Virus record (IMG/VR): IMGVR_UViG_3300009370_000127
Location: 1 to 29,569 of that record
From: a virus
Reading direction: 5' to 3' (one strand)
DNA: 29,569 nt
Shown: positions 11,244-23,260 of the stretch, piece after piece
How positions within the stretch are numbered: the stretch's first letter is position 1
Layout of the letters: each line of letters starts with the position of its first letter
Program-made: the position numbers and the translations under genes
Notes under the pieces: model-generated
Database searches by the model: none
What the model was told of the DNA's origin: nothing
What the model saw: only the letters and a program-made list of their open reading frames with translations

Positions 11244-11380
11244 CTGGTGCGAGGGGATCGAACCCTCATCCCTCCGGTATCGTGTCACCGTCTAGCTTCG
11301 TCGCGCTTCCACTAGGGGCTTTCCCGCGAGGGCACTCACAATCGCCTTAAACTCAAGTGAGGGCAACCATTGCCACCAAC
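11244..11380 (-). ncRNA. tRNA-like structured RNA 1 (~137 nt)
   Basis: On the minus strand the RNA should begin near 11380, 6-7 nt after a -10 box. It has a near-canonical T-arm, GAGGG-TTCGATC-CCCTC (loop at 11256-11262), directly followed by GCACCAG. The 5' end TTGGTG (11379-11374) can pair with CACCAG (11249-11244), closing the molecule as an acceptor-like stem. Other stems are GGCAA/TTGCC, CTCAC/GTGAG and CGGT/ACCG. It is too long and lacks a clear D-arm or anticodon arm for a normal tRNA. A second RNA of similar size and ends lies at 15727-15884. Confidence 0.6.
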
Positions 11381-11473: not shown

Positions 11474-11758
11474 TTACTCCTTCATCCACGGTGGTGGTTC
11501 GTCTTTGTCCCACATTTCATTAACTTTCATCCACGGGATGCGAAGTAGTTCATCCCATGATTCTTGATCTACAACATCATTGTGAGCAGCCCGAACAATA
11601 GCGTGATGACCCGAAAGCTTCCATTTCCAATCTTCACCATACGTTTCAGTCAGCACGTCAGAATCAATGGTATGTTCCTTGCCTTCAGGGTTAATGTAAG
11701 TGAAAACGTGCCTATTAGTTTTCCTGTTAGAGTAAAGTAAGAATTTCTCGCCTTCCAT
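11474..11758 (-). CDS. Hypothetical protein, 94 aa
   Basis: Leaderless start 6 nt after TACTAT. A soluble protein with strands at the N-terminus (EKFLLYSNRKTNRHVFTYINPEGKEH), a Trp-rich helical second half and an acidic Pro-rich end. No family is recognised. First protein gene of the minus-strand cassette block: one promoter, one gene, one hairpin element. Confidence 0.65.
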   Translation of the reverse strand: MEGEKFLLYSNRKTNRHVFTYINPEGKEHTIDSDVLTETYGEDWKWKLSGHHAIVRAAHNDVVDQESWDELLRIPWMKVNEMWDKDEPPPWMKE

Positions 11759-11764
11759 GGGGAA

Positions 11765-11793
11765 ATAGTATGATATAAATATCGGTTTGTCAA
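11765..11793 (-). promoter_or_regulatory. Cassette promoter, leaderless type
   Basis: Minus strand: TTGACA (11793-11788), 17 bp, TACTAT (11770-11765), TTCCCC, ATG at 11758. The same layout recurs through the block. Confidence 0.9.
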
Positions 11794-11803
11794 GCGTATT
11801 AGT

Positions 11804-11866
11804 AGGGGTTAATGATACCGCAGCGGCCCCCGTAAGCCCTTGTGAGCTTACGAGGGTTGGGGGCTA
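11804..11866. repeat. Cassette hairpin element R8 (long)
   Basis: AGGGGTT with an ACCGCAGCGG core, followed by a nested hairpin CGTAAGC/GCTTACG (11831-11837/11846-11852) inside GGCCCCC/GGGGGC. A longer composite copy. Confidence 0.75.
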
Positions 11867-12169
11867 GGCCAAGCTTGGTTCAGTGCCAGCGTAGAGGCCA
11901 GCGGCTTCTTGTCGCTTTTCCTCAGTTAGGTCACGGAATTCCAACATATCCATTTCATCATCTCCAAGGAGACAATCCATATGGTCATTGTATTTGGGGA
12001 TACGACCCTCACGGAGAGAGGCGATATTCTTGAGATCAACTTCATCGAGTTGAGCATGGTGTGGGTTGCAGCGAGTCCCATCGCTGAAGGTGGTTTGGTC
12101 ACGTTCGAGGATGTCCTGTTGGATACGTTGGACGTGGTTCTTTATTAGATGCTCTATTCTGTTGTTCAT
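11864..12169 (-). CDS. Hypothetical protein, 101 aa
   Basis: Mainly helical and acidic, with a DGTRCNPHHAQLDEVDL segment in the middle and an LTEEKRQEAAGL end; the pattern looks like a conserved phage family but I cannot name one. The start lies 9 nt after TACATT, and the sequence before the ATG (ACCTCC) is the opposite of a Shine-Dalgarno site. Single-gene cassette. Confidence 0.6.
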   Translation of the reverse strand: MNNRIEHLIKNHVQRIQQDILERDQTTFSDGTRCNPHHAQLDEVDLKNIASLREGRIPKYNDHMDCLLGDDEMDMLEFRDLTEEKRQEAAGLYAGTEPSLA

Positions 12170-12178
12170 ATCGGAGGT

Positions 12179-12207
12179 AATGTAACACCAAATACGTTAC
12201 CTGTCAA
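12179..12207 (-). promoter_or_regulatory. Cassette promoter, near leaderless
   Basis: Minus strand: TTGACA (12207-12202), 17 bp, TACATT (12184-12179), 9 nt, ATG at 12169. The spacer holds GTAACGTATTTGGTGTTAC, an inverted GTAAC/GTTAC pair that may be an operator. Confidence 0.82.
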
Positions 12208-12216
12208 GCATTTATT

Positions 12217-12252
12217 TAGGGATCACGAAACCCGCAACGGGGTAGCGAACCC
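12217..12252. repeat. Cassette hairpin element R9
   Basis: Variant copy: AGGGATCACGAAACCC, a CGCAACGGGG core (AAC instead of AGC), GCGAACCCC. Confidence 0.7.
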
Positions 12253-12253
12253 C

Positions 12254-12532
12254 TTATTCATCTTCCCAACGATAGCCTTCAGGTGGCATGATGTGCCACA
12301 AGTCATTTTCCCTTGCTCTACCTATGACGTGAGGCTCAATCTCTTCCATGTCTACCATGCCCCACTCGTTTTCGTTGCCCATCACATAGCCAAAGGACAA
12401 GCCGCAACTGTCTGTCTCTTCTAGATAATACTCCCAAAGGTTTTTAGTGATGATATGTTGATGCACGGTGAAAGGCTCGCCTTCGGCGCATGGGCCTGTC
12501 CCATCGTTGCTGATTATGTTTCTAGGTTTCAT
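12254..12532 (-). CDS. Hypothetical protein, 92 aa
   Basis: Leaderless or with a 1-2 nt leader (8 nt from -10 to ATG); starts ATGAAACCTAG, close to the shared 5' motif. Acidic and Trp-rich, with GYVMGNENEWGMVDMEEIEPH in the centre and a PPEGYRWEDE end. No recognised family or membrane segment. Single-gene cassette. Confidence 0.65.
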   Translation of the reverse strand: MKPRNIISNDGTGPCAEGEPFTVHQHIITKNLWEYYLEETDSCGLSFGYVMGNENEWGMVDMEEIEPHVIGRARENDLWHIMPPEGYRWEDE

Positions 12533-12540
12533 GTAGGGAA

Positions 12541-12569
12541 ATAGTACGCTCTAAATATCGGTTTGTCAA
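12541..12569 (-). promoter_or_regulatory. Cassette promoter
   Basis: Minus strand: TTGACA (12569-12564), 17 bp, TACTAT (12546-12541), TTCCCTAC, ATG at 12532. Confidence 0.88.
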
Positions 12570-12578
12570 GCCCTACTT

Positions 12579-12618
12579 TAGGGACCACGAAACTCGCAGC
12601 GGGGTGGCGAACCCCTTT
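12579..12618. repeat. Cassette hairpin element R10
   Basis: AGGGACCACGAAACTCG, CAGCGGGG core, GGCGAACCCC. Confidence 0.75.
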
Positions 12619-12769
12619 AGTGACCACAGCACGGGTAGTCTTCGCAGTTGCAACGTGAGTAGTTATCTGGGCCACCATCATCCCAAAAAGCTTGCTCTCT
12701 TTCATCAAACCATTCGCTCATTTCGGCATGGTCTTGGTTGGTCATTTCACTATAAGGGTCTTTACTCAT
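12617..12769 (-). CDS. Small acidic protein with Cys-rich C-terminus, 50 aa
   Basis: Start chosen at 12769, 6 nt after TACTAT; the open frame extends upstream to 12856 through the promoter and hairpin, so that part is not coding. The protein is acidic and ends RCNCEDYPCCGH, where four Cys and a His could hold a metal ion. The rest is helical with DHAEMSEWFDEREQAFW. No named family. Single-gene cassette. Confidence 0.65.
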   Translation of the reverse strand: MSKDPYSEMTNQDHAEMSEWFDEREQAFWDDGGPDNYSRCNCEDYPCCGH

Positions 12770-12775
12770 GGGGAA

Positions 12776-12804
12776 ATAGTACGGCTGAAATATCGATTTG
12801 TCAA
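12776..12804 (-). promoter_or_regulatory. Cassette promoter, leaderless type
   Basis: Minus strand: TTGACA (12804-12799), 17 bp, TACTAT (12781-12776), TTCCCC, ATG at 12769. Confidence 0.9.
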
Positions 12805-12813
12805 GCATTACTT

Positions 12814-12852
12814 TAGGGGTTACGAAACGCGCAGCGGGGTGACGAACCCCTT
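12814..12852. repeat. Cassette hairpin element R11
   Basis: Consensus copy with AGGGGTTACGAAACGCGCAG and GGGGTGACGAACCCC; the same core sequence as R12 and R20. Confidence 0.85.
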
Positions 12853-12860
12853 TCACACTT

Positions 12861-13025
12861 TTACCAAGTCCATTCAGTGGTGAGCATACAGTGAGCTACT
12901 ACAAAGCTCAAAGCAAGGGCCGCACCCAAGCACGCCGCAATGGTTAATTCAAGATACCACTTAACTTTAGCATCTTGTTCGTTGAGTTGCTGGATTTCTT
13001 TACGTGTTAGGTTTTTATTTTTCAT
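12861..13025 (-). CDS. Small membrane protein, 54 aa
   Basis: Overlaps the preceding gene by ATGA and so is probably coupled to it. The first 23 residues are polar and charged (KNKNLTRKEIQQLNEQDAKVK), then one hydrophobic segment (residues 25-44) spans the membrane. No family recognised. With the 33-aa peptide at 13022 it makes a cassette of two small membrane proteins, which might form a pair. Confidence 0.6.
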   Translation of the reverse strand: MKNKNLTRKEIQQLNEQDAKVKWYLELTIAACLGAALALSFVVAHCMLTTEWTW

Positions 13026-13123
13026 GATATAGATTCAATGTAAATGCCCGTTGCTAGTATCACCACAAATGATACGATACCGACAATAAGAACAAAGTAA
13101 ATATCTCTGAAGTCGTCGTTCAT
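13022..13123 (-). CDS. Membrane micropeptide, 33 aa
   Basis: Start lies 7 nt after TACTAT, without a ribosome site. Acidic N-terminus (NDDFRD), then a hydrophobic helix (residues 8-26). Its stop overlaps the next start (ATGA). Unknown function. The promoter and the coupled second gene make it credible despite its size. Confidence 0.6.
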   Translation of the reverse strand: MNDDFRDIYFVLIVGIVSFVVILATGIYIESIS

Positions 13124-13130
13124 TGGGAGA

Positions 13131-13159
13131 ATAGTACGGCTTAAATATCGATTTGTCAA
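13131..13159 (-). promoter_or_regulatory. Cassette promoter
   Basis: Minus strand: TTGACA (13159-13154), 17 bp, TACTAT (13136-13131), 7 nt, ATG at 13123. Confidence 0.88.
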
Positions 13160-13169
13160 GCATTACTTT

Positions 13170-13207
13170 AGGGGTTACGAAACGCGCAGCGGGGTGACGA
13201 ACCCCTT
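13170..13207. repeat. Cassette hairpin element R12
   Basis: Same core sequence as R11. Confidence 0.85.
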
Positions 13208-13210
13208 ATG

Positions 13211-13426
13211 TTAATAGTCGTTACCTTCCATTTGATTAAAGTCTGCTAGGTCATCCATGCCAGACCCGTCACCAGGCCAGCAACCTTCAAAGCCATCATA
13301 GGCTATTGTAGATGAGGAGAAATTAGGCTTCTCATCATAATACTCCTCTGAGCCAATTTTGGCAAGGCGGTCATCAGGGCTTTGGGGGTCGAGGTTAGAA
13401 TTAGGGTTGTTGTAGGTTTCACTCAT
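13211..13426 (-). CDS. MSETY-type small acidic protein, 71 aa
   Basis: Start chosen at 13426 from the promoter (-10 ends 7 nt upstream); the open frame upstream to 13555 crosses a promoter and hairpin. It begins MSETYNN, sharing its opening codons with genes at 15280, 16186 and 3488. The rest is acidic and probably disordered (NPNSNLDPQSPDD, GDGSGMDD). Single-gene cassette; function unknown. Confidence 0.62.
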   Translation of the reverse strand: MSETYNNPNSNLDPQSPDDRLAKIGSEEYYDEKPNFSSSTIAYDGFEGCWPGDGSGMDDLADFNQMEGNDY

Positions 13427-13433
13427 GGAGAAA

Positions 13434-13462
13434 ATAATAATATCTAAATACTGATTCGTCAA
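13434..13462 (-). promoter_or_regulatory. Cassette promoter (divergent pair)
   Basis: Minus strand: TTGACG (13462-13457), 17 bp, TATTAT (13439-13434), 7 nt, ATG at 13426. Faces away from the plus promoter at 13510. Confidence 0.8.
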
Positions 13463-13474
13463 GAAGTTTTTTTT

Positions 13475-13510
13475 GGGGTTACGAAACGCGCAGCGGCCTA
13501 AGAAACCCCT
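13475..13510. repeat. Cassette hairpin element R13 (between divergent promoters)
   Basis: GGGGTT, GCGCAGCGG core, AAACCCC; the last base is the first of the plus -35 box. No gene end lies here, so it is not needed as a terminator. Confidence 0.8.
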
Positions 13511-13538
13511 TGACAACGTCACAGAGTTCGTGTACCTT
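13510..13538 (+). promoter_or_regulatory. Leaderless-type promoter
   Basis: TTGACA (13510-13515), 17 bp, TACCTT (13533-13538), ATTCCC, ATG at 13545. Confidence 0.87.
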
Positions 13539-13544
13539 ATTCCC

Positions 13545-13928
13545 ATGAGTGACACTTATCAATTCGAGGATGTAGAAATTAAGCTGAACGATTCAACCCT
13601 CCTGTATGTCTTTGGAGAGCTTGAGTACGACCCTTGCTGGGAAAATGGTGATTTCGATTACGAGGGGCCACAAGGGACGGCCACTCATCGGGTCGGCATG
13701 GAATTGACCGATATTGAAATTGAGGATATAAGCATTTTTCATTTTAACGTCTCTGCTAACATGGGTGGCAAGTGGGTAGATTTGGGGCAGATTGAATGGA
13801 GTTACTGCGATCAGGATAAGAGCTTTCGGGCGTTTGTGGAAAAGGAAATTCGCGAAATCGTAGGCAATGACCGTTCATTTACTGAAACGGTACAAGAGGC
13901 GGGCGTGCCAGAATATGACCCTTGTTGA
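13545..13928 (+). CDS. Hypothetical acidic protein, 127 aa
   Basis: Leaderless start 6 nt after the -10; the frame is open from 13473 but that part is promoter. It begins MSDTY, like the MSETY group. Strand-rich and acidic, with a repeated EYDPC (near residue 35 and at the C-terminus) and a WSYCDQDKSFRAFVEKEI helix. The family is unrecognised. Single plus-strand gene inserted among minus-strand cassettes. Confidence 0.62.
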   Translation: MSDTYQFEDVEIKLNDSTLLYVFGELEYDPCWENGDFDYEGPQGTATHRVGMELTDIEIEDISIFHFNVSANMGGKWVDLGQIEWSYCDQDKSFRAFVEKEIREIVGNDRSFTETVQEAGVPEYDPC

Positions 13929-13950
13929 GTGTAAATATCATCTCACCCTT

Positions 13951-13997
13951 GCAACCCGAAGGGGTTGCGGGGGCCGCTGCGGGGTTAGCGACCCCTA
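13951..13997. repeat. Convergent cassette element R14
   Basis: GCAACCC-GAAG-GGGTTGC hairpin, GGCCGCTGCGG core, GGGGTTAGCGACCCC. Between convergent genes, same layout as R6. Confidence 0.8.
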
Positions 13998-14050
13998 AAC
14001 ATCCTATAAGCTATATAAACTAAAAGGATAGTTACTATAGGCTCCATGCT

Positions 14051-14233
14051 CTATTCGCAGGGATTAGGCTGAGTCCACACGTAAGGCCAAACCCCAACAA
14101 TCTCGCTATTAGGGTTATCTGCCAAGGCGCAGCGTTTGGCTTCTTCCAGAGAGAAGTCGCTAAAGCTTTGTTGATGATAATGACCGCTAACGGTGTGGCG
14201 GGTTCGGATCGTGTAGTTTTTGGTGTCGTCCAT
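14051..14233 (-). CDS. Hypothetical protein, 60 aa
   Basis: Start 8 nt after TAGTAT. Its layout (strand-rich start, a His-rich HYHQQSFSDFSLEEAKRCA stretch, then strands) is faintly like the DpnD/PcfM-type proteins at 7298-7708, but too divergent to assign. Single-gene cassette. Confidence 0.6.
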   Translation of the reverse strand: MDDTKNYTIRTRHTVSGHYHQQSFSDFSLEEAKRCALADNPNSEIVGVWPYVWTQPNPCE

Positions 14234-14241
14234 TTAGGGAA

Positions 14242-14270
14242 ATACTACACCCTAAATATCGGTTCGTCAA
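14242..14270 (-). promoter_or_regulatory. Cassette promoter (divergent pair)
   Basis: Minus strand: TTGACG (14270-14265), 17 bp, TAGTAT (14247-14242), 8 nt, ATG at 14233. Confidence 0.85.
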
Positions 14271-14278
14271 GCATTATT

Positions 14279-14315
14279 TAGGGGTTACTAAACACGCTGC
14301 GGCTAAAGAATCCCC
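14279..14315. repeat. Cassette hairpin element R15 (between divergent promoters)
   Basis: AGGGGTTACTAAACACGCTG, GCGG, AATCCCC, directly followed by the plus -35 box. Second divergent example. Confidence 0.8.
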
Positions 14316-14344
14316 TTGACAGTTAACTCTTTTTCTTGTACATT
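14316..14344 (+). promoter_or_regulatory. Near-leaderless promoter
   Basis: TTGACA (14316-14321), 17 bp, TACATT (14339-14344), 10 nt, ATG at 14355. Confidence 0.83.
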
Positions 14345-14354
14345 CTTTCTCGTA

Positions 14355-14663
14355 ATGAAGACCTACAAAACTTATCAAGCTCGTAACGCGGTCAAGGCCG
14401 CAGAGGTAACCAACCACATCAAAGCTCAAAAAAAATTGGGCGTGACTCATGAGAAGGCGAAGGCTGAAGCTTATCGCCTTTATCAAATCAAGGCTGCGAT
14501 GCCTATCCTCCGGCTCTCTTTTGAAGAGGCTCGTGTGGTAGCTGCTCCCCCTATCCCTCAAATGGTAAAAGTGAGCCTTCCACCTCTGCCCCAATCTAGA
14601 GCCTTGCCACCGCTGCCAGTGGGATTAGCCACAAACCCGCCTTCTCAATTACAAATACAGTAG
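14355..14663 (+). CDS. Hypothetical protein with Pro-rich tail, 102 aa
   Basis: Start from the promoter; the upstream open frame to 14316 is promoter DNA. It starts MKTYKTY (ATGAAGACCTAC, close to the shared 5' motif). Residues 8-60 are Ala/Lys/Glu-rich helix, likely coiled coil; residues 72-102 are Pro-rich (PPLPQ, PPLPVG) and probably extended. It might be a scaffold or binding protein; family unknown. Confidence 0.62.
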   Translation: MKTYKTYQARNAVKAAEVTNHIKAQKKLGVTHEKAKAEAYRLYQIKAAMPILRLSFEEARVVAAPPIPQMVKVSLPPLPQSRALPPLPVGLATNPPSQLQIQ

Positions 14664-14675
14664 GCACAGCGTCCT

Positions 14676-14723
14676 CGTAACCTGAAGGGGTTACGGGGGC
14701 CGCTGCGGGGTGGCGAACCCCTT
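14676..14723. repeat. Convergent cassette element R16
   Basis: CGTAACC...GGTTACG hairpin (14676-14695), GGCCGCTGCGGGG core, GCGAACCCC. Between convergent genes. Confidence 0.8.
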
Positions 14724-14988
14724 AAAAACCTAATCGTCGTTTAGCTCGCCACCACCACCCATATGCGGGGTCTTCGCCCCTGAGATTGGTGAGCCAGTAA
14801 AGGCGGTGGCACACGAGGTTAACCCAACGAGAGTTGGGCCACCTGTGGGCAGGGCCATGAGAACGGCTAAAGACCCAGCTACTGAAAGACCACTGCCACT
14901 CATGCGGCATGACTGCACGCACCACAGGGCGCAGGACTTGAGAGCGGCGGACAAAGAAACGAACAAGGTTGAACAGTAGGTCATTCAT
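14722..14988 (-). CDS. Hypothetical basic Trp-rich protein, 88 aa
   Basis: Start chosen at 14988 (7 nt after TACTAT); the frame is open to 15024 through the promoter. Unusually rich in Arg and Trp (ten Trp), ending YGWWWRAKRRLGF; this could suit membrane-surface or nucleic-acid binding. An alternative in-frame start in another frame (14984, 84 aa) also exists, so the true frame is not certain. Single-gene cassette. Confidence 0.5.
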   Translation of the reverse strand: MNDLLFNLVRFFVRRSQVLRPVVRAVMPHEWQWSFSSWVFSRSHGPAHRWPNSRWVNLVCHRLYWLTNLRGEDPAYGWWWRAKRRLGF

Positions 14989-14995
14989 TGGGGAA

Positions 14996-15024
14996 ATAGT
15001 ACGGCTGAAATATCGATTCGTCAA
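14996..15024 (-). promoter_or_regulatory. Cassette promoter
   Basis: Minus strand: TTGACG (15024-15019), 17 bp, TACTAT (15001-14996), 7 nt, ATG at 14988. Confidence 0.87.
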
Positions 15025-15033
15025 GAATTATTT

Positions 15034-15072
15034 TAGGGGTTACGAAACGCGCAGCGGCTTCAGTGATCCCTT
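15034..15072. repeat. Cassette hairpin element R17
   Basis: Consensus left half (AGGGGTTACGAAACGCGCAG), right half degenerate (GATCCCTTCGGGTC). Confidence 0.75.
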
Positions 15073-15091
15073 CGGGTCTGGAGCGTGTTAG

Positions 15092-15280
15092 CTATTCATC
15101 AAAAAGCTCATCGTAGTAATTACGGAATGGCACTACTTCGAGTTCGTCGGGGGTTTCTTCCACACCTTCGAGAGTCATCACTTGGACGGTCTCTTCAAAC
15201 AGGTTGAGGGTGCTGGCGTCAAACTCCAAGTCACACTTGGCGTCCAGGTTAGGATTATGGTGGTCGTAGGTTTCACTCAT
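15092..15280 (-). CDS. MSETY-family small acidic protein, 62 aa
   Basis: Leaderless start 6 nt after TAAGTT. It shares MSETY, LDAK, EFDAST and NLFE with the protein at 15977-16186, so the two are paralogues about 0.9 kb apart. Acidic and helical, ending NYYDELFDE. Unknown function. The repeated family in the same kind of cassette suggests duplication of whole cassettes followed by divergence. Confidence 0.68.
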   Translation of the reverse strand: MSETYDHHNPNLDAKCDLEFDASTLNLFEETVQVMTLEGVEETPDELEVVPFRNYYDELFDE

Positions 15281-15286
15281 GGGAGA

Positions 15287-15315
15287 AACTTACGGCATAA
15301 ATACCCATTCGTCAA
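15287..15315 (-). promoter_or_regulatory. Cassette promoter, leaderless type
   Basis: Minus strand: TTGACG (15315-15310), 17 bp, TAAGTT (15292-15287), TCTCCC, ATG at 15280. Confidence 0.85.
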
Positions 15316-15325
15316 GAATTATTTT

Positions 15326-15363
15326 AGGGGTTACGAAACGCGCTGCGGCTTCAGTGACCCCTT
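15326..15363. repeat. Cassette hairpin element R18
   Basis: AGGGGTTACGAAACGCGCTG, GCGG, GTGACCCC. The core has T in the centre while R17 has A. Confidence 0.8.
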
Positions 15364-15367
15364 ATGC

Positions 15368-15417
15368 TACTCCCCCGTATCCCCCCCGTATTTATTCGAC
15401 AGGGGGGGAGGGGGGTA
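15368..15417 (-). terminator. C-tract/G-tract hairpin, possible terminator
   Basis: Two C runs (around 15370-15388) face two G runs (15402-15415) with a short A/T-rich loop, so very GC-rich pairing is possible and the G runs might also form a quadruplex. On the minus strand it follows the small membrane genes at 15455-15640. No clear U-tract. Confidence 0.45.
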
Positions 15418-15454
15418 ACTTTTTTTTCATTTCAAAAAAATTACGCAGTACGGA

Positions 15455-15553
15455 CTACGTTAATGCTAAGGCGATTAAGGCAAAGCCTAGTGCGGTAAGA
15501 ATAAAGCCAGTTTGAAAGGCTGCGAGAAACATATCCCAATTAATTTTTTTCAT
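15455..15553 (-). CDS. Small membrane protein, 32 aa
   Basis: Begins MKKINWD and continues as one hydrophobic helix (residues 8-31) rich in Ala and Leu. It follows a 23-aa peptide by 15 nt and is probably the second gene of that cassette; the spacer carries AAAAAACCTACTAAATATG, another copy of the AAACCTAC motif. No ribosome site is seen. Confidence 0.55.
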   Translation of the reverse strand: MKKINWDMFLAAFQTGFILTALGFALIALALT

Positions 15554-15568
15554 ATTTAGTAGGTTTTT

Positions 15569-15640
15569 TTAGTTGTTAAAAGACTCACACACGAGGCGAG
15601 TCATAACGTACGCGAATAGGATTCCTGCTATCGGTTCCAT
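15569..15640 (-). CDS. Micropeptide with a membrane segment, 23 aa
   Basis: Start 7 nt after TATTAT. MEPIAGILFAYVM forms a short hydrophobic helix, followed by a polar end. The cassette promoter and position support expression, but at 23 aa this remains tentative. Pairs with the 32-aa membrane protein downstream. Confidence 0.5.
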   Translation of the reverse strand: MEPIAGILFAYVMTRLVCESFNN

Positions 15641-15647
15641 GTAGAGA

Positions 15648-15676
15648 ATAATACTTGTCAAATACCAATTTGTCAA
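15648..15676 (-). promoter_or_regulatory. Cassette promoter
   Basis: Minus strand: TTGACA (15676-15671), 17 bp, TATTAT (15653-15648), 7 nt, ATG at 15640. Confidence 0.87.
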
Positions 15677-15686
15677 GCATCATTTT

Positions 15687-15724
15687 AGGGGTTCGAAAAG
15701 CCGCTGCGCTTCGCGCTACCCCTT
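15687..15724. repeat. Cassette hairpin element R19
   Basis: AGGGGTTCGAAAAGCCGCTG, then GCGCTTCGCGC and TACCCC; the inner part can form a GCGC-TTC-GCGC hairpin. On the minus strand it follows RNA 2. Confidence 0.75.
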
Positions 15725-15726
15725 AA

Positions 15727-15884
15727 TGGTTCTCACGGAGTCGAACCGCCACCATTAGGGAAGGCGAAGCCAAAGCGATGTTGGGCCGCGTTCTTAAGGC
15801 ACTTTTTCGCATCTACACCCGACGACATACGAGGGGCGGTGCCGCGATAATTCTAGGCGGGAACCAGTCAGCCATCGCTTAACT
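15727..15884 (-). ncRNA. tRNA-like structured RNA 2 (~158 nt)
   Basis: A complete cassette promoter (15892-15920) drives a stretch with no gene on the minus strand. Predicted RNA features are a helix AAGCGATG (15880-15873) with CATCGCTT (15780-15773), inner stems GGCAC/GTGCC and CCGC/GCGG, a T-arm-like GCGG-TTCGACT-CCGT (loop 15745-15739) and TGGTTC (15866-15861) able to pair with GAACCA (15732-15727) near the 3' end. Together these imply a pseudoknot and a tRNA-like closed end. It is followed by element R19 at the position where cassette genes end. It resembles RNA 1 at 11244-11380 in ends and size; family unknown. Confidence 0.65.
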
Positions 15885-15891
15885 GGGGAAA

Positions 15892-15920
15892 ATAGTAGCT
15901 TGGAAATATCGATTCGTCAA
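15892..15920 (-). promoter_or_regulatory. Cassette promoter of RNA 2
   Basis: Minus strand: TTGACG (15920-15915), 17 bp, TACTAT (15897-15892), then TTTCCC; predicted +1 near 15884. No start codon follows. Confidence 0.85.
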
Positions 15921-15930
15921 GCATTATTTT

Positions 15931-15968
15931 AGGGGTTACGAAACGCGCAGCGGGGTGACGAACCCCTT
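15931..15968. repeat. Cassette hairpin element R20
   Basis: Same core sequence as R11 and R12. Confidence 0.85.
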
Positions 15969-15976
15969 ATGTGTTA

Positions 15977-16186
15977 TTACTCTTCACGGAGCCCATCCAT
16001 GAAGCGGTCTTCGTTTTCGTTTTCCTCGTAACAGAGTTCATCGATGACGGTGAAATGTTCGTCAGCGAGCACATCCACTTGCGCTTCAAACAAGTTTATG
16101 GTGCTGGCGTCGAATTCGGCGTCAAGCTTCGCGTCAAGGCTCGCGCTAAGTGGGGTTTCTGAATTAGGTTCGTAGGTTTCACTCAT
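15977..16186 (-). CDS. MSETY-family small acidic protein, 69 aa
   Basis: Leaderless start 6 nt after TAGGAT. Shares MSETY, LDAK, EFDAST and NLFE with the protein at 15092-15280. The extra segment ASLDAKLDAEFDAS looks like an internal duplication. Ends ENEDRFMDGLREE. Acidic, soluble, unknown role. Confidence 0.68.
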   Translation of the reverse strand: MSETYEPNSETPLSASLDAKLDAEFDASTINLFEAQVDVLADEHFTVIDELCYEENENEDRFMDGLREE

Positions 16187-16192
16187 GGGAGA

Positions 16193-16221
16193 ATCCTAGA
16201 GCCAAAATATCAGTCTGTCAA
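16193..16221 (-). promoter_or_regulatory. Cassette promoter, leaderless type
   Basis: Minus strand: TTGACA (16221-16216), 17 bp, TAGGAT (16198-16193), TCTCCC, ATG at 16186. Confidence 0.87.
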
Positions 16222-16231
16222 CACTTTTTTT

Positions 16232-16270
16232 AGGGGTTTGGAAGACCGCAGCGGTTTCCGTAACCCCTTT
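16232..16270. repeat. Cassette hairpin element R21
   Basis: AGGGGTTTGGAAGACCGCAG, CGG, then GTAACCCC and TTTT. Confidence 0.78.
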
Positions 16271-16289
16271 TGGGTCGGAAGCGATGCTT

Positions 16290-16511
16290 TTAGGCGTACG
16301 CTGTGCGTACTATATTGAATTCCTTCATTTGCTTCTTCTTCGCCACGCGGAGTTTACTCGCGGGAACGGTAAAAGTCGAACCGTCGTAAGATTCGAGCGT
16401 CCACACATCATTTTCTACGCTTTTCGCACGTCCGATTTGATAACCGCAGAGCGAATCAGGGTCTTTGACCTTATACAGGCATCCGATTTGGTAACGAGTA
16501 GGTTTTTTCAT
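16290..16511 (-). CDS. Hypothetical protein, 73 aa
   Basis: Start chosen at 16511, downstream of the promoter; the frame is open to 16553. Begins ATGAAAAAACCTAC, the shared 5' motif. Strand-rich fold (YQIGCLYKVKD..., DVWTLESYDGSTFTVPASKLRV) that looks like a small beta-barrel or SH3-like domain, with a basic KKKQMK stretch. No family can be named. Confidence 0.6.
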   Translation of the reverse strand: MKKPTRYQIGCLYKVKDPDSLCGYQIGRAKSVENDVWTLESYDGSTFTVPASKLRVAKKKQMKEFNIVRTAYA

Positions 16512-16521
16512 CTCCCGAATA

Positions 16522-16550
16522 GGATAACCGACCAAATACCGACCTGTCAA
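16522..16550 (-). promoter_or_regulatory. Cassette promoter (weak -10)
   Basis: Minus strand: TTGACA (16550-16545), 17 bp, TTATCC (16527-16522), or TATCCT with 18 bp. The ATG at 16511 lies about 10 nt downstream. Confidence 0.65.
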
Positions 16551-16560
16551 CACTTTTTTT

Positions 16561-17464: not shown

Positions 17465-18220
17465 ATGAGCAGAAAAAGCTCCCAAGACAAAAATAAGGAT
17501 ATAGCTAACCAAATTGAAGAATCCATCCAAAACAATTTCAACCCCAACCCGTTAAAAAGACGAATTAAGGTTAAAAATTTTCCTTGGACCGAGAAACAGA
17601 AGAACTTCTTTAAAATAGCCTTGCATCCACAAACAAGCATCGTTTTTGTTAATGGACCAGCGGGAACCAGTAAAACTTTACTGTCGGTATATTGCGGTCT
17701 TCAGATGCTAAACATGAAATGTATCTCTGACGTTATGTATTTGAGATCATCGGTAGAATCGTCTGACCAAAGACTCGGATATTTGCCGGGGAGTGCAGAT
17801 GACAAACTGTCTTATTATAAGATTCCATTATTAGAAAAGCTTGATGAGCTACTTCCAGAAACGACCACGGAACGTTTGGAAAAAGAAAACAGAATATCAA
17901 TGTTCCCCGTAAACTTCGCTAGAGGCGTTAACTGGACCAACAAGTGTATTATCATGGATGAAGCGCAAAACTGCACCACAAAGGAAATTACGACCATTCT
18001 GACACGGTTAGGGGCGGGGTCTAAGTGTTTTGTTCTGGCTGATCCCATGCAAACTGATCTACACGGGACAAAGAGCGGTTTTGTTAAAATGCACGATTTA
18101 TTTAAGGACGATCAGGAAAGTATGGAAAACGGAATTTACACTTTCCAATTCGATGAAGAAGACGTCATGCGATCAGAGCTTGTTAAGTTCCTTGTAAAGA
18201 AATTAAAACACATAAATTAA
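17465..18220 (+). CDS. phoH: PhoH-like ATPase, 251 aa
   Basis: P-loop ATPase of the PhoH family, frequent in marine phages. Walker A is GPAGTSKT (residues 64-71) and Walker B is IIMDEAQN (162-169). Between them lies the LGYLPGSADDKLSYY segment near 104-118, typical of PhoH. An N-terminal extension of about 40 residues is polar. AGGTG lies about 6 nt before the ATG as a ribosome site. The role of PhoH in phages is uncertain (RNA metabolism and phosphate stress have been proposed). It is followed 1 nt later by a GTG-started membrane protein. Confidence 0.9.
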   Translation: MSRKSSQDKNKDIANQIEESIQNNFNPNPLKRRIKVKNFPWTEKQKNFFKIALHPQTSIVFVNGPAGTSKTLLSVYCGLQMLNMKCISDVMYLRSSVESSDQRLGYLPGSADDKLSYYKIPLLEKLDELLPETTTERLEKENRISMFPVNFARGVNWTNKCIIMDEAQNCTTKEITTILTRLGAGSKCFVLADPMQTDLHGTKSGFVKMHDLFKDDQESMENGIYTFQFDEEDVMRSELVKFLVKKLKHIN

Positions 18221-18563: not shown

Positions 18564-18657
18564 AATTAAAATATAACTGAGCAACCCAAAGGCCACATCG
18601 AGGGCATTGAAAGTATTTTTTAGCTATGCAATAACCACAGTTGGGGCAATTCTTCAT
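18469..18657 (-). CDS. Putative zinc-ribbon protein, 62 aa
   Basis: Begins MKNCPNCGYCIAKKYFQCPRCG, a good C-x2-C...C-x2-C zinc ribbon, overlapping the upstream gene by ATGA. The remainder is hydrophobic and overlaps the 3' end of the plus-strand gene at 18222-18563, which is unusual. The Cys motif and coupling support a real gene; the real end or length may differ. Confidence 0.5.
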   Translation of the reverse strand: MKNCPNCGYCIAKKYFQCPRCGLWVAQLYFNFILIGRFVLKSPRVSGYLFPTLFSPCKERRL

Positions 18658-19115
18658 TTAGGTCCGAACTTTTCAAGTATAAGGTTTTTATAGTGGGCAA
18701 ATTCGTAGAAACTCGCCTTACCATTCCTAAGCCAACTGATGTATTTTAATTTTTCGTGAAAAAATGGCCTAACCTCCTCAATTAAGTCGGCAGTCATAAC
18801 CGTTGAAACAAAGTCTATTGTGTAACAATTAGCATCTTCATCTGGCGGGGTGAATAAATTTTCCATATATGAATTTAGAGCTTCTTCCTTGGAGTCGTAC
18901 TTTTTTTTGTTTATGAGCAAGGCTATGTTTTCGGAGCAATAAGCAAACCCTTGATACCTCAAAAACAAATCGAGAAAGTAATTTTTGTTTGTAGTTTTTT
19001 GAGTAAGTATGAACTCACTTTCGGGCTGATTCTTAATTAATAGGTCTTGGCATCGTTGAAAGAAAACGAGCTTTTCGTCATTATTAAATAAGTTTAGTCG
19101 TTTGAACTGATTCAT
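18654..19115 (-). CDS. Hypothetical protein, 153 aa
   Basis: Starts inside the end of the GT9-type gene (32-nt overlap) and ends in an ATGA shared with the zinc-ribbon frame. Charged, mostly helical, with many Asn, Lys and Phe, and a SFYEFAHYKNLI segment near the C-terminus. No family recognised. Member of the minus-strand glycosylation-type operon. Confidence 0.65.
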   Translation of the reverse strand: MNQFKRLNLFNNDEKLVFFQRCQDLLIKNQPESEFILTQKTTNKNYFLDLFLRYQGFAYCSENIALLINKKKYDSKEEALNSYMENLFTPPDEDANCYTIDFVSTVMTADLIEEVRPFFHEKLKYISWLRNGKASFYEFAHYKNLILEKFGPK

Positions 19116-19866
19116 AAGAGTCTATGGCCTCCTCTAGCTTGTGTGTTTGGTTGAAGGTTAGCTGGGTTACTTTATCGAAAGATAATATGTTTTTTCTGCT
19201 ATTATTGGTGTAAAACCCTATCGTTTGCTTGTTGAGACCTCTAGCTATGAGCGTACCACAACTTTCTGTACCTATAAACAAATTACAGTTATCAATAATG
19301 CTTATAAATTCGTGGTAATTTAATTTTTCTTCTCCTATTATATGGTAATTTTCGTATTTTGATAGAGTTTGAAGGACTTCTTTGTTTTCATGCAGACAAC
19401 GATCCTCTTCGTTAGCTCTTAGTTGGGCTACGATATTATAAGAAGGCACGTTTTGCTTTGAGAAGTGAATTTGGGGGATAATGGAATTTAGAGTAATATT
19501 TTTACCTAGTAGCATATGTTTAGCTACAGCGTGAGACATAGGTATTTCATATCTTGGGTCTTGGCTTTTCACTCCCTTTTCCAAAACTCCTTGAAAATCA
19601 AAATGTAAATCAAAAAATGAATTAATGCCCCGCCAATATGGAGACTCTTTTGGTTTTAGCTCATCGTAATACCCCAGATAATAATCCATAGTGTCACAGA
19701 CAACGTCAGAAATTAACGGGTGATGAGTAAGTACATCATAAAAATCTATATACGTTCTAAAGACAATTTCGCACGGCTTGTGTTCTTCGTGAATAGCTCT
19801 TATTATTGGCTCTATGAAAAGGAGGTCTCCAAGACCGCCTAGCCTTGTTAATAGAATTCTTGTCAT
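19084..19866 (-). CDS. Glycosyltransferase family 9-like protein, 260 aa
   Basis: Start chosen at 19866 (MTRILLTRLGGLGD), 2 nt after the previous stop; the frame extends upstream without need. The N-terminal GGLGDLLFIEPIIRAI matches ADP-heptose:LPS heptosyltransferase-type (GT9) enzymes, and the C-terminal part has the NLFIGTESCGT motif typical of their nucleotide-sugar site. It probably transfers a sugar to a phage or host glycan; the donor and acceptor cannot be told. The operon has two GT9-like genes (the other at 22373). Soluble, no membrane segment. Confidence 0.8.
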   Translation of the reverse strand: MTRILLTRLGGLGDLLFIEPIIRAIHEEHKPCEIVFRTYIDFYDVLTHHPLISDVVCDTMDYYLGYYDELKPKESPYWRGINSFFDLHFDFQGVLEKGVKSQDPRYEIPMSHAVAKHMLLGKNITLNSIIPQIHFSKQNVPSYNIVAQLRANEEDRCLHENKEVLQTLSKYENYHIIGEEKLNYHEFISIIDNCNLFIGTESCGTLIARGLNKQTIGFYTNNSRKNILSFDKVTQLTFNQTHKLEEAIDSYESVQTTKLI

Positions 19867-19868
19867 GT

Positions 19869-20498
19869 TTATTCTATTCGTTTTTGCCAACTGGGAAGAT
19901 TTACAGAGCGGCCCCAAGCTACCCCCTGAGGTATGAGGGGCTCTAAAATTAAAAAGCCTTCACTACGATTATCCTTTGTAATAAGGTGGGTCTTTTTGAA
20001 TGGGTTACACATGAAACCTATTCCGCGTTCGTTATCGGAAGCTCTGTAATCTGGGGGGCAATCCCCACTGGTGTAGGGGCCGTCTTCATAAATTCTTACA
20101 TCATCTATAATGAAAACATCCCTTGAAACATCTTTATTTTTAACAATAAGCTCAAGTTCTCTTTTTAGAGGTAATTCAGTTTCGTCATCTCGCGGATGTC
20201 CGTAATGACTAGGTAGATGAGCGTCTAGCCAAAAAAGAGTGGGTACATCATAATTTTCTTTTAGAATGTTTGGGAGAACGTTTACGGAGCTACCCAAGAA
20301 AGCGCGTATATTTGGAATATTAGAGAAGTCATTAGAATCAAACATATGCTCTAGCAACTCTATAGTATAAACCCTCTTAAAGTTTTGAGAGGCTAGGTGG
20401 GTGGTGCCGTCGCCTAAGTGAGTTCCTGTTTCAATAGCTATTTCTAAATTGTATTCTTTTTTTAGTTCTCCGATAGGCCATTCATATATAGCACCCAT
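19869..20498 (-). CDS. Methyltransferase-like protein, 209 aa
   Basis: A Rossmann-type methyltransferase pattern: IETGTHLGDGTTHLA near residues 21-35 as a glycine-rich S-adenosylmethionine site, VYTIELLEHMF, and FWLDAHLPSHY with acidic residues in the 90s. It may methylate a sugar or an intermediate made by the neighbouring enzymes. It is soluble, lies 2 nt upstream of the GT9 gene and 10 nt downstream of the radical SAM gene. The exact methyltransferase family is not certain. Confidence 0.68.
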   Translation of the reverse strand: MGAIYEWPIGELKKEYNLEIAIETGTHLGDGTTHLASQNFKRVYTIELLEHMFDSNDFSNIPNIRAFLGSSVNVLPNILKENYDVPTLFWLDAHLPSHYGHPRDDETELPLKRELELIVKNKDVSRDVFIIDDVRIYEDGPYTSGDCPPDYRASDNERGIGFMCNPFKKTHLITKDNRSEGFLILEPLIPQGVAWGRSVNLPSWQKRIE

Positions 20499-20508
20499 AG
20501 CAATACCT

Positions 20509-21270
20509 TTATCTAGGGCAAACAGAACAATAAGAGTGTTTTAGTCTACCTCCAGCCACAGAAAGGTCATCTACGAGCTCTTGGTGTTTCTGGCTTTCCC
20601 ATATTTCTTTTAGCGACATAGTATTCGTATCCCCAAGACCAAAGTGGCCGACGTAATCATCGCAACAATGGAGAACTGTCCCATTGTAAGCTATAATTAA
20701 CATTTGATTATAGAACGTGCACGGTTTGTGTTTTTGGTCTTCAACTGTTTGCGTGGTATTAGTAAAGGGGCTATAGTGAGTAATCACATGGACGCCTTTC
20801 GTGAATCTTAATTCTGTTTTTTTGAAAAGATTTAGGAGCCATTTTTCTCTCTCTGGTTGTCTTTCTTCAGGTATATACAAGGCGACTACGAAATGATCAA
20901 AAAGGCCGTCCAGTTCTTTTGCTCTTTCTTCAGTCATTAAATCCATGTTAGAACAAGCAGATAAAGCTCCTTTAATTTGGGGTTTACTTTTAACATATTG
21001 ACCTAACTCAGCCAGCCTTTCATCTAAGAGTGGCTCATTAAAGTGTTGCAAACAAACGGTATTGTCAAAACCCATGTCCACAGCTTGATCTATTATTCTT
21101 TTAAATGTGGCCGTGGGCATTTTCATTCCTTCTCCCACTTTAGAAGTCACAGGGAACCTCCCGTAATGAGTTGGGTTATTTTTGTTGATGTACGTTTGCC
21201 TTAAGCAAGTCTGGCACGTCCTATTACAACTTCCAACCGTTTCGATTTCTAGGTGGGTAAAAATGTTCAT
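20509..21270 (-). CDS. Radical SAM protein with SPASM-like C-terminus, 253 aa
   Basis: C15-x3-C19-x2-C22 (CNRTCQTC) is the classical radical SAM [4Fe-4S] motif. The C-terminal half has a SPASM-like Cys set: KPC near 180, HCC after an AYNGTV stretch, then a SLKEIW segment and a final YCSVCPR. Such enzymes modify peptides, sugars or proteins, or act in cofactor and natural product synthesis. In this sugar-transfer operon, modification of a sugar or glycosylated product is a fair inference. It overlaps the upstream GT2 gene by ATGA. Confidence 0.85.
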   Translation of the reverse strand: MNIFTHLEIETVGSCNRTCQTCLRQTYINKNNPTHYGRFPVTSKVGEGMKMPTATFKRIIDQAVDMGFDNTVCLQHFNEPLLDERLAELGQYVKSKPQIKGALSACSNMDLMTEERAKELDGLFDHFVVALYIPEERQPEREKWLLNLFKKTELRFTKGVHVITHYSPFTNTTQTVEDQKHKPCTFYNQMLIIAYNGTVLHCCDDYVGHFGLGDTNTMSLKEIWESQKHQELVDDLSVAGGRLKHSYCSVCPR

Positions 21271-22376
21271 AGTTTATTTTTAGCAAAATTTAAGTTTTTT
21301 TCTATTCTTGGCAAATACGAACGAGGAACGAAAGCGTTTTGCAATAACTCTTGGCAAGCGTCATAGGACTCTTGATAGTGTCCAGCCCAATAAGCGGCAA
21401 TCGAAAATTCGTCAAGCAGTCCATAATCGTAAATCCATTTCTCTGTAAATAGAAAATGTTTTTTTATTTTTTTATTGAGCCCCTCTTTTGACATGAGATA
21501 AGCCAAATGATTTTTATTGTGCGTCCTGCAATATTTAGCGAGATAATGATAAGCTTCGGCTCTTGAGCTATTAAATTCGAGCCCCTTAAGATAGGTCTCT
21601 ACAACTACATTGCTCGGATAACCTAATTGTTCTTGTAGCATTCCACCTTTTATACAGGATTGATAAGACTCTTCTTCCCAATGTCCCATTTTTATACGTT
21701 GCATATAGAAATCGAGAGCTTTTCCCGGAGAATCGCTATCTTTATGACTTTGAGCAGCGTAAAACGTGTATCTTGAACGAAGAAATTCATCTGTTTCGGT
21801 CTCTAAGGCTTCCTCCAGTAATTTTGCGTCATCTTGAAATTTACGAGGATTTTTGTTTCTAGCACTATCTTGGATTGGGTGATTATAGAAGTTTTTTTCA
21901 TGATTTATGAAATCTTTTGTCCCTTCTCCGTCTAGAAACTCATGAACCACGCCTATATATTTGAAGTCTTTTTTGTTAGATGTGAGAGTGGGCCGATAAT
22001 AAATAGTATCAGCCATTTTAGTGGGAATATTGTAAATATCAAAACTTAAGGATTCTTTAAATTTTTTAATATCAAAACTCTTCTGAAATGTTAGTATCTC
22101 ATCAGCATCAATCATCAGTGCGTATTCACAATCTGTTTTTCTTGCTTCTTTTAACGCAAGCGTTCTACCGTGTGCAAAACCTTTCCATTGGTCTTCTATT
22201 ATCTTCCCCGGCAAGTTTTGTTTTTTTAGAAAATTATTTATTACTTTTATTGTGTTGTCTGTACTCCCCGTATCTACAATAACGACTTCATCTATCAAGG
22301 GTTTTACGCTATCAAGGCAACGCTCGATTATGTGAGCCTCGTCTTTCACTATCATACATAAGTTTATTTTTTTCAT
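21267..22376 (-). CDS. GT2 glycosyltransferase with TPR-like C-terminus, 369 aa
   Basis: Start chosen at 22376 (MKKINLCMIVKDE), which overlaps the upstream stop by ATGA; the open frame to 22430 would run into the upstream gene. Residues 1-120 hold a GT-A fold: CMIVKDEAHIIERCLDSV, VIVDTGSTDNT, and a MIDADE DxD-type metal site. The C-terminal half has repeated helical segments with aromatic and Asn-rich positions like TPR repeats (AKYCRTHNKNH, AAYWAGHYQESYDA). This fusion is a recognised type of processive or protein-linked sugar transferase. Substrate unknown. Confidence 0.85.
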   Translation of the reverse strand: MKKINLCMIVKDEAHIIERCLDSVKPLIDEVVIVDTGSTDNTIKVINNFLKKQNLPGKIIEDQWKGFAHGRTLALKEARKTDCEYALMIDADEILTFQKSFDIKKFKESLSFDIYNIPTKMADTIYYRPTLTSNKKDFKYIGVVHEFLDGEGTKDFINHEKNFYNHPIQDSARNKNPRKFQDDAKLLEEALETETDEFLRSRYTFYAAQSHKDSDSPGKALDFYMQRIKMGHWEEESYQSCIKGGMLQEQLGYPSNVVVETYLKGLEFNSSRAEAYHYLAKYCRTHNKNHLAYLMSKEGLNKKIKKHFLFTEKWIYDYGLLDEFSIAAYWAGHYQESYDACQELLQNAFVPRSYLPRIEKNLNFAKNKL

Positions 22377-23260
22377 ATTTTCTGCATTACAGCATCGTAA
22401 ACCATATCGACGGATATTCCCGCCATACATTCATGTTTTGGATTTTCATATGTTTGATTTTTTGGGTTAGGGCACGTACCCTTGGACATTTGAGATACTT
22501 TCGGGTCTTCCCTGAAACACGGCTGGCATGGCAAATTTAGGGAAATATTTGTGTTATGACGATATCCTGCCGCATTATACTGAGTTGACCCCCATAAAAT
22601 AACACAACTCTTTTTGCCTATACCATGCCATGAATAATTAGATGTATGATTAAAGACGGAATCTACACCAATATGAAGTTCCCCCCAAATTTGGGAAGCT
22701 AAATTATCATCGAACGAACGTCCCAAAAAATGCCCATCGAGATTTAACAATTTTGGATCGTTAGGCCCGCCTATTTGATATATTCCTATATCTGGCCTTT
22801 CGTCTTTGAGTCTATTTACGAGTTTTTGCCAACCCCACCACTCTTTGTAAGCGGACCATCCTGTTTTTGTCTGAATCGTAATGTATATGGGCTTTTTAAA
22901 AACTTCAGATGGAGGTTTCATGGGCGTTAACTTCACGTCATCGAATGAAATATCCAAATCTAGCTCTTCAGCAAAATATTCTATTAAGTGTTTTCTCATT
23001 GGCGTATTGGGGTACCCCTCGGACAAGGGATAACCAATACAATTCACAGATTTGTCATATTTAGAAGAATCAAATTCATCTATATCTGAAGCTTCATCAA
23101 CTAGCCCACTTTTTCTACAAAAATTTTTTACAACACCTAATGTGGACCGATGGCAATACAAATCGACTTTATCGTAACGCTCCTTTAGCTTGGGGGCGCA
23201 ATTGAGGATCATCATTATGTCTCCTATGGCTCCCGGACGACAAAGGGCTATCGACTTCAT
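22373..23260 (-). CDS. Glycosyltransferase family 9-like protein, 295 aa
   Basis: The GAIGDIMM motif at residues 11-18 and a later LGRSFDDNLASQIWGELHIGVDSVFNH segment match GT9 (heptosyltransferase-type) enzymes. A Cys-rich stretch near residues 245-280 (CQPCFREDP...CPNPK...C) is typical of one sub-branch. It is the second gene of the operon, overlapping the neighbour on each side by ATGA. Its paralogue is at 19084-19866. Confidence 0.82.
   Translation of the reverse strand: MKSIALCRPGAIGDIMMILNCAPKLKERYDKVDLYCHRSTLGVVKNFCRKSGLVDEASDIDEFDSSKYDKSVNCIGYPLSEGYPNTPMRKHLIEYFAEELDLDISFDDVKLTPMKPPSEVFKKPIYITIQTKTGWSAYKEWWGWQKLVNRLKDERPDIGIYQIGGPNDPKLLNLDGHFLGRSFDDNLASQIWGELHIGVDSVFNHTSNYSWHGIGKKSCVILWGSTQYNAAGYRHNTNISLNLPCQPCFREDPKVSQMSKGTCPNPKNQTYENPKHECMAGISVDMVYDAVMQKI

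Follow-up and report, generated by a model that had tools for sequence, protein, structure and literature searches.

The window, by which we mean the whole analysed stretch of 29,569 bases of an IMG/VR virus record, belongs to a tailed phage, judging by its terminase, PhoH-like protein and clamp loader. No close cultured relatives were found, and the best terminase match has about 25% identity. Between about 10.9 and 16.6 kb, the minus strand contains an array of about a dozen small promoter-driven cassettes, each formed by a TTGAC(A/G/C)-17-TANNNT-like promoter, about 140-310 nt of cargo and, abutting the next promoter, a hairpin element rich in G+C. At least 15 copies of the hairpin element are present in the window (repeat families D1/D2/D4), and 5 promoter-like sites were observed in 801 bases, against 0.8 expected. 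The ATG of 12 protein cassettes (11758-16553, minus strand) is located 35-39 nt beyond the first base of the -35 box and 6-10 nt past the -10 box, so leaderless mRNAs are predicted for them. Short protein genes occur in the array, one of 33 aa (13123-13022) and putative ORFs of 23 and 32 aa read from the sequence within 15640-15459. The PhoH gene at 17465 has a Shine-Dalgarno sequence, unlike the predicted leaderless cassettes, and between it and a sigma-factor-like gene (18654-23260, minus strand) there are glycosyltransferase-like, radical-SAM-like and other sugar-related genes, assigned only by eye from their translations.

The promoter early stem-loop (PeSL) cassettes of T4-like phages are reportedly the subject of Arbiol et al. 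2010 and Comeau et al. 2014. In the window, a stem-loop element stands directly before a host-type promoter, and this arrangement is repeated between small genes. In the close relatives L069 and L070 (for one gene, 89% and 83% identity at the protein level), the cassette cargo differs and is rearranged, and the promoter and hairpin sequences are also different. PeSL cassettes, named in PMC4503421, share with our array the series of small genes, the stem-loop with a sigma-70-type promoter immediately after it and the high turnover of cargo between relatives. The cassette layout thus corresponds to the PeSLs of T4-like phages. Our phage differs in having no close cultured relative and in the AUG immediately after the promoter, as predicted for leaderless transcripts.

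The cassette investigated here, RNA 2, was proposed by the initial annotation to be a complete cassette promoter followed by about 158 nt with no reading frame and by the usual hairpin element. Both flanking elements are indeed in place, with a standard hairpin element after the cargo (Table 1). Since no T run follows this hairpin, termination of the transcript there is putative.

Table 1. Coordinates of RNA 2, RNA 1 and the features discussed in the text
Feature	Coordinates	Strand	Remarks
Upstream hairpin element, end of previous cassette	15927..15969	minus	repeat families D1/D2/D4
RNA 2 promoter TTGACG-17-TACTAT	15892..15920	minus	9/12 consensus
RNA 2 predicted transcription start	~15886-15884	minus	from the -10 box
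Putative RNA 2 body	15727..15884	minus	~158 nt; longest ORF 31 codons
8-bp helix, 5' arm AAGCGATG	15873..15880	minus	at predicted 5' end; ensemble pairing 0.32-0.68
8-bp helix, 3' arm CATCGCTT	15773..15780	minus	
Acceptor-like 5' strand TGGTTC	15861..15866	minus	pairable with GAACCA 15732-15727
3' hairpin CCCUAAUGGU...ACCAUUAAGGG	15720..15760	minus	tip is the T-arm-like motif; z -1.96
T-arm-like GCGG-UUCGACU-CCGU	15749-15735	minus	T stem ensemble probability 0.73-0.81
Downstream hairpin element, likely transcript end	15683..15725	minus	MFE -17.6, z -2.5
20-aa ORF (MADWFPPRIIAAPPLVCRRV)	15813..15875	minus	alternative coding reading; no Shine-Dalgarno
31-aa ORF (MSSGVDAKKCLKNAAQHRFGFAFPNGGGSTP)	15733..15828	minus	alternative coding reading; the only place on this strand where the local coding score is positive
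29-aa ORF (MRKSALRTRPNIALASPSLMVAVRLRENH)	15723..15812	minus	alternative coding reading; ends at hairpin element
RNA 1, established RNA cassette of the array	11244..11379	minus	tRNA-like acceptor, P2 helix, T-arm; predicted start at own acceptor stem
RNA 1 homologue, L116	2073-2219		
RNA 1 homologue, L115	2582-2725		
RNA 1 homologue, L112	1185-1352		
RNA 1 homologue, L117	5735-5905		
RNA 1 homologue, L110	1142-1312		
RNA 1 homologue, L114	5120-5269		
RNA 1 homologue, L111	1-179		
RNA 1 homologue, L069	11383-11598		

Coding potential of RNA 2

RNA 2 contains ORFs starting with ATG of 20, 29 and 31 codons, and the proposed lack of a reading frame is correct only above 31 codons. The first ATG is displaced, lying 45 nt from the start of the -35 box, exactly as in RNA 1, whereas this distance is 35-39 nt in the 12 protein cassettes. 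Scored for coding over its whole length, RNA 2 gives negative values in all frames; those of the minus strand (-0.48 to -0.57 per codon) are lower than any in-frame score of the 13 cassette genes, which vary from -0.32 to +0.23 (leave-one-out). The GC content is 56% in RNA 2 and 59% in RNA 1, against 41% in the window. No Shine-Dalgarno was found before any RNA 2 ATG when reading the sequence, and none of its frames has significant similarity with proteins of the window, of the relatives or of phage records. A non-coding cassette gene has its own promoter and no conserved or statistically supported ORF, and this is what we found in RNA 2. Given the start geometry, the missing coding signal, the GC content and one tRNA-like motif (see below), we regard RNA 2 as a probable non-coding cassette. 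The idea of a noncoding gene in a slot used by protein genes is supported by the first three of these and by RNA 1, although the short ORFs remain.

It could be that the transcript has a short leader and that one of the three ORFs is translated, RNA 2 then being a very short peptide gene. The 31-codon ORF exceeds 90% of the shuffles in length (9.8% equal or exceed it), the 20-aa ORF begins some 10 nt past the predicted transcript start, and other cassettes do have short proteins. However, the AUG lies away from the transcript start, unlike in the 12 protein cassettes, and the absence of a Shine-Dalgarno ahead of any ATG, the negative overall coding score and the absence of protein homologues make this quite unlikely.

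On the other hand, RNA 2 could be a decayed cassette, either a former small protein gene with a broken frame or scrambled filler, in which promoter and hairpin persist without a functional product. Read from the first ATG, the frame is interrupted once, by a TAG, before reaching a TAA at the hairpin element; the locally positive coding stretch sits in a different frame. Nevertheless, one stop in about 50 codons is no evidence of a broken gene, because random sequence often yields one, and the promoter is intact while no frame significantly resembles the proteins compared. A gene with an in-frame stop or a frameshift was also considered and rejected, since homologues and a whole-length coding signal were lacking in all frames.

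Fold and relatives of RNA 2

The initial annotation gave RNA 2 a perfect 8-bp helix, a T-arm-like loop and pairing ends, implying a pseudoknot and a tRNA-like shape. The helix, the loop and the pairable ends are all present, but such a helix is common in shuffles and the whole fold is no better than shuffles (z +0.24). The 8-bp helix occurs at any position in 10% of the dinucleotide shuffles and with its 5' arm within the first 10 nt in 1.6%, the T motif GGTTCGANNCC in 0.14% and the T-arm plus 7-nt acceptor geometry in 0.3%. Only the T-arm-like motif GGTTCGACTCC stands out as uncommon in RNA 2 (p about 0.0015-0.003). All p values are post hoc, the tests having been picked once the sequence had been seen. 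Outside ORFs, RNA 1 and RNA 2 have the sole T-arm signatures of the window, and nearly all of those in related contigs are real tRNAs.

In a tRNA-like pseudoknot, the TGGTTC/GAACCA acceptor, the T-arm and the 8-bp helix would be formed together. The end pairing needed for it has an ensemble probability of 0.001-0.002, because the same bases form the local 3' hairpin, and forcing acceptor and T-arm together costs 6 kcal/mol; these energies consider nested folds only, and thus count against the pseudoknot without settling the question. The rarity of the T-arm plus acceptor geometry in shuffles would fit such a fold, as would a length of 140 nt, near that of RNA 1 (136 nt), which has both elements. 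Yet a looser version of this geometry is no commoner window-wide, ORFs included, than in shuffles (7 occurrences vs 7.4), reading RNA 2 showed no counterpart of the GG-containing segment located after the acceptor in RNA 1 and its homologues, and the RNA 1 model does not match RNA 2. We consider this fold highly improbable. With no excess folding energy, an acceptor-like pairing that loses to a local hairpin and no match by ARAGORN (normal thresholds), Rfam or the RNA 1 covariance model, neither the implied pseudoknot nor the tRNA-like shape is supported for RNA 2.

ARAGORN detected no tRNA or intron-containing tRNA in RNA 2 at normal thresholds and only spurious folds at lowered ones, and there is no CCA end and no recognised D-arm or anticodon arm. 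A tmRNA was likewise found neither by ARAGORN at the normal threshold nor in Rfam, although RNA 2 shares with tRNAs and tmRNAs a T-loop-like TTCGACT hairpin. The families of Rfam 15 gave no match with E up to 10. The sequence similarity between RNA 2 and RNA 1 is not significant (122/500 and 53/500 shuffles as good), and the RNA 1 covariance model reaches at best 1.8 bits on the RNA 2 strand with filters off, compared with 36 bits for L069 and 75-175 bits for the L110-L117 members.

No homologue of RNA 2 was found in L069 and L070, in the 158-kb contig of L070 and about 24 further phage contigs searched whole, or by blastn in cultured phages. The PhoH-based relatives L009-L014 have other cassettes, with no RNA 2 found. 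DNA-pattern scans returned 0 matches for its 3' end in IMG/VR and, in GTDB genomes, 0 for this end and for the RNA 1 core. A loose acceptor plus T-arm signature had 50 matches in IMG/VR, corresponding to tRNAs, coding sequence and unrelated stretches, and the cassette-promoter pattern matched 4 contigs there, all unrelated. The lack of homologues and a fold not above chance would be expected from the decayed cassette described above, which would nevertheless turn the T-arm motif and the 5'-end helix into coincidences; we attribute to it some, albeit low, probability.

RNA 1 and its neighborhood

RNA 1 is composed of an acceptor, a GG-containing D-loop-like segment, a P2 domain and a T-arm, with no CCA, and has no Rfam match. 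Its homologue in L070 shows 84% identity, and a covariance model built from these two sequences detects the L069 version (E 1e-8 to 1e-7). Scanning with the invariant core revealed homologues in L110, L111, L112, L114, L115 and L117 besides the L070 contig (E 1e-29 to 1e-19). The core, CGCAGGAAAGCCCCTAGTGGAAGCGCGACGAAGCTAGACGGTGAYACGATACTGG, is almost invariant among nine phage contigs and diverged in L069. When the nine sequences are aligned, both partners vary in 12 of the 31 pairs and 98.5% of the cells are paired, counts that lean towards the model since the alignment was fitted to it; such values were reached by 0/500 shuffles, and the signal is lost when the partners are slid. Compensations in the acceptor can be observed in the raw sequences (TTGGTG/CACCAA, TCGGTG/CACCGA and AGGGTG/CACCCT), and those in P2 are also visible. 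RNA 1 is a real, conserved tRNA-like phage RNA with strong covariation, and it is more interesting and promising for follow-up than RNA 2. The proposal that the cassette system carries RNAs too is therefore upheld through RNA 1, conserved in nine phage contigs. RNA 2 resembles this family in its array, promoter type, 45-nt offset, lack of a sizeable ORF, T-arm-like motif and similar length, but the covarying acceptor, P2 and T stems and the conserved core are those of RNA 1, whose covariance model RNA 2 fails.

Other elements were observed around RNA 1 and in related contigs. The manA RNA motif (RF01745) is a structured RNA of marine T4-like cyanophages (Weinberg et al. 2010, PMC2864571). In L110 (1307-1483) and L117 (5900-6078) it is found immediately 3' of the RNA 1 homologue, which suggests that structured RNAs are clustered in these phages; RNA 2 matches neither this motif nor another Rfam family. 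Downstream of RNA 1 and outside a small ORF, there is a conserved block, CCTCAACCGGACGCAGATAAG...CTGTCGGCAATG, 88-91% identical among the window (11195-11116, minus strand), L069 (10999-10914) and L114 (5128-5049), with no match in Rfam. It is on the opposite side of the small ORF in L069 and thus seems mobile. In L069, about 200 nt of non-coding, hairpin-rich sequence (~11380-11180, minus strand) ending in GGAGGGGTTTAGCGACCCCTCC come after the RNA 1 homologue. L074 contains, with its 3' end at 504 on the plus strand, a T-arm and a 7-bp acceptor spanning 99 nt, with no ARAGORN tRNA call, possibly another unusual tRNA-like RNA.

Proposed role of RNA 2

As the best overall explanation, we suggest with moderate confidence that RNA 2 is a non-coding member of the promoter/hairpin cassette array of this phage, with a small RNA as its product. 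Transcription would start from the cassette promoter, the transcript would bypass the usual leaderless translation of the array, and it would stop at the cassette hairpin, resulting in a small RNA of about 160-200 nt. In its likeliest shape, the 8-bp helix would close a domain on the 5' side and the 3' hairpin with the T-loop-like tip would come next, without a pseudoknot. We infer that its function is most likely that of a small regulatory or decoy RNA in early infection. A host tRNA-handling protein might recognise the T-arm-like tip, but we hold this to be unlikely. We think it very unlikely that this phage has in RNA 2 a further tRNA mimic, unrelated to RNA 1, which would engage the host tRNA machinery by means of its T-arm-like tip and of the alternative pairing of its ends, the array then storing and shuffling tRNA-mimic RNAs along with small proteins.

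That the array has RNA cargo is a general point already firmly backed by RNA 1. If RNA 2 is transcribed, it would be a compact case on which to study early phage RNAs, and the shuffling phage array would trade small RNAs on an equal footing with small proteins.
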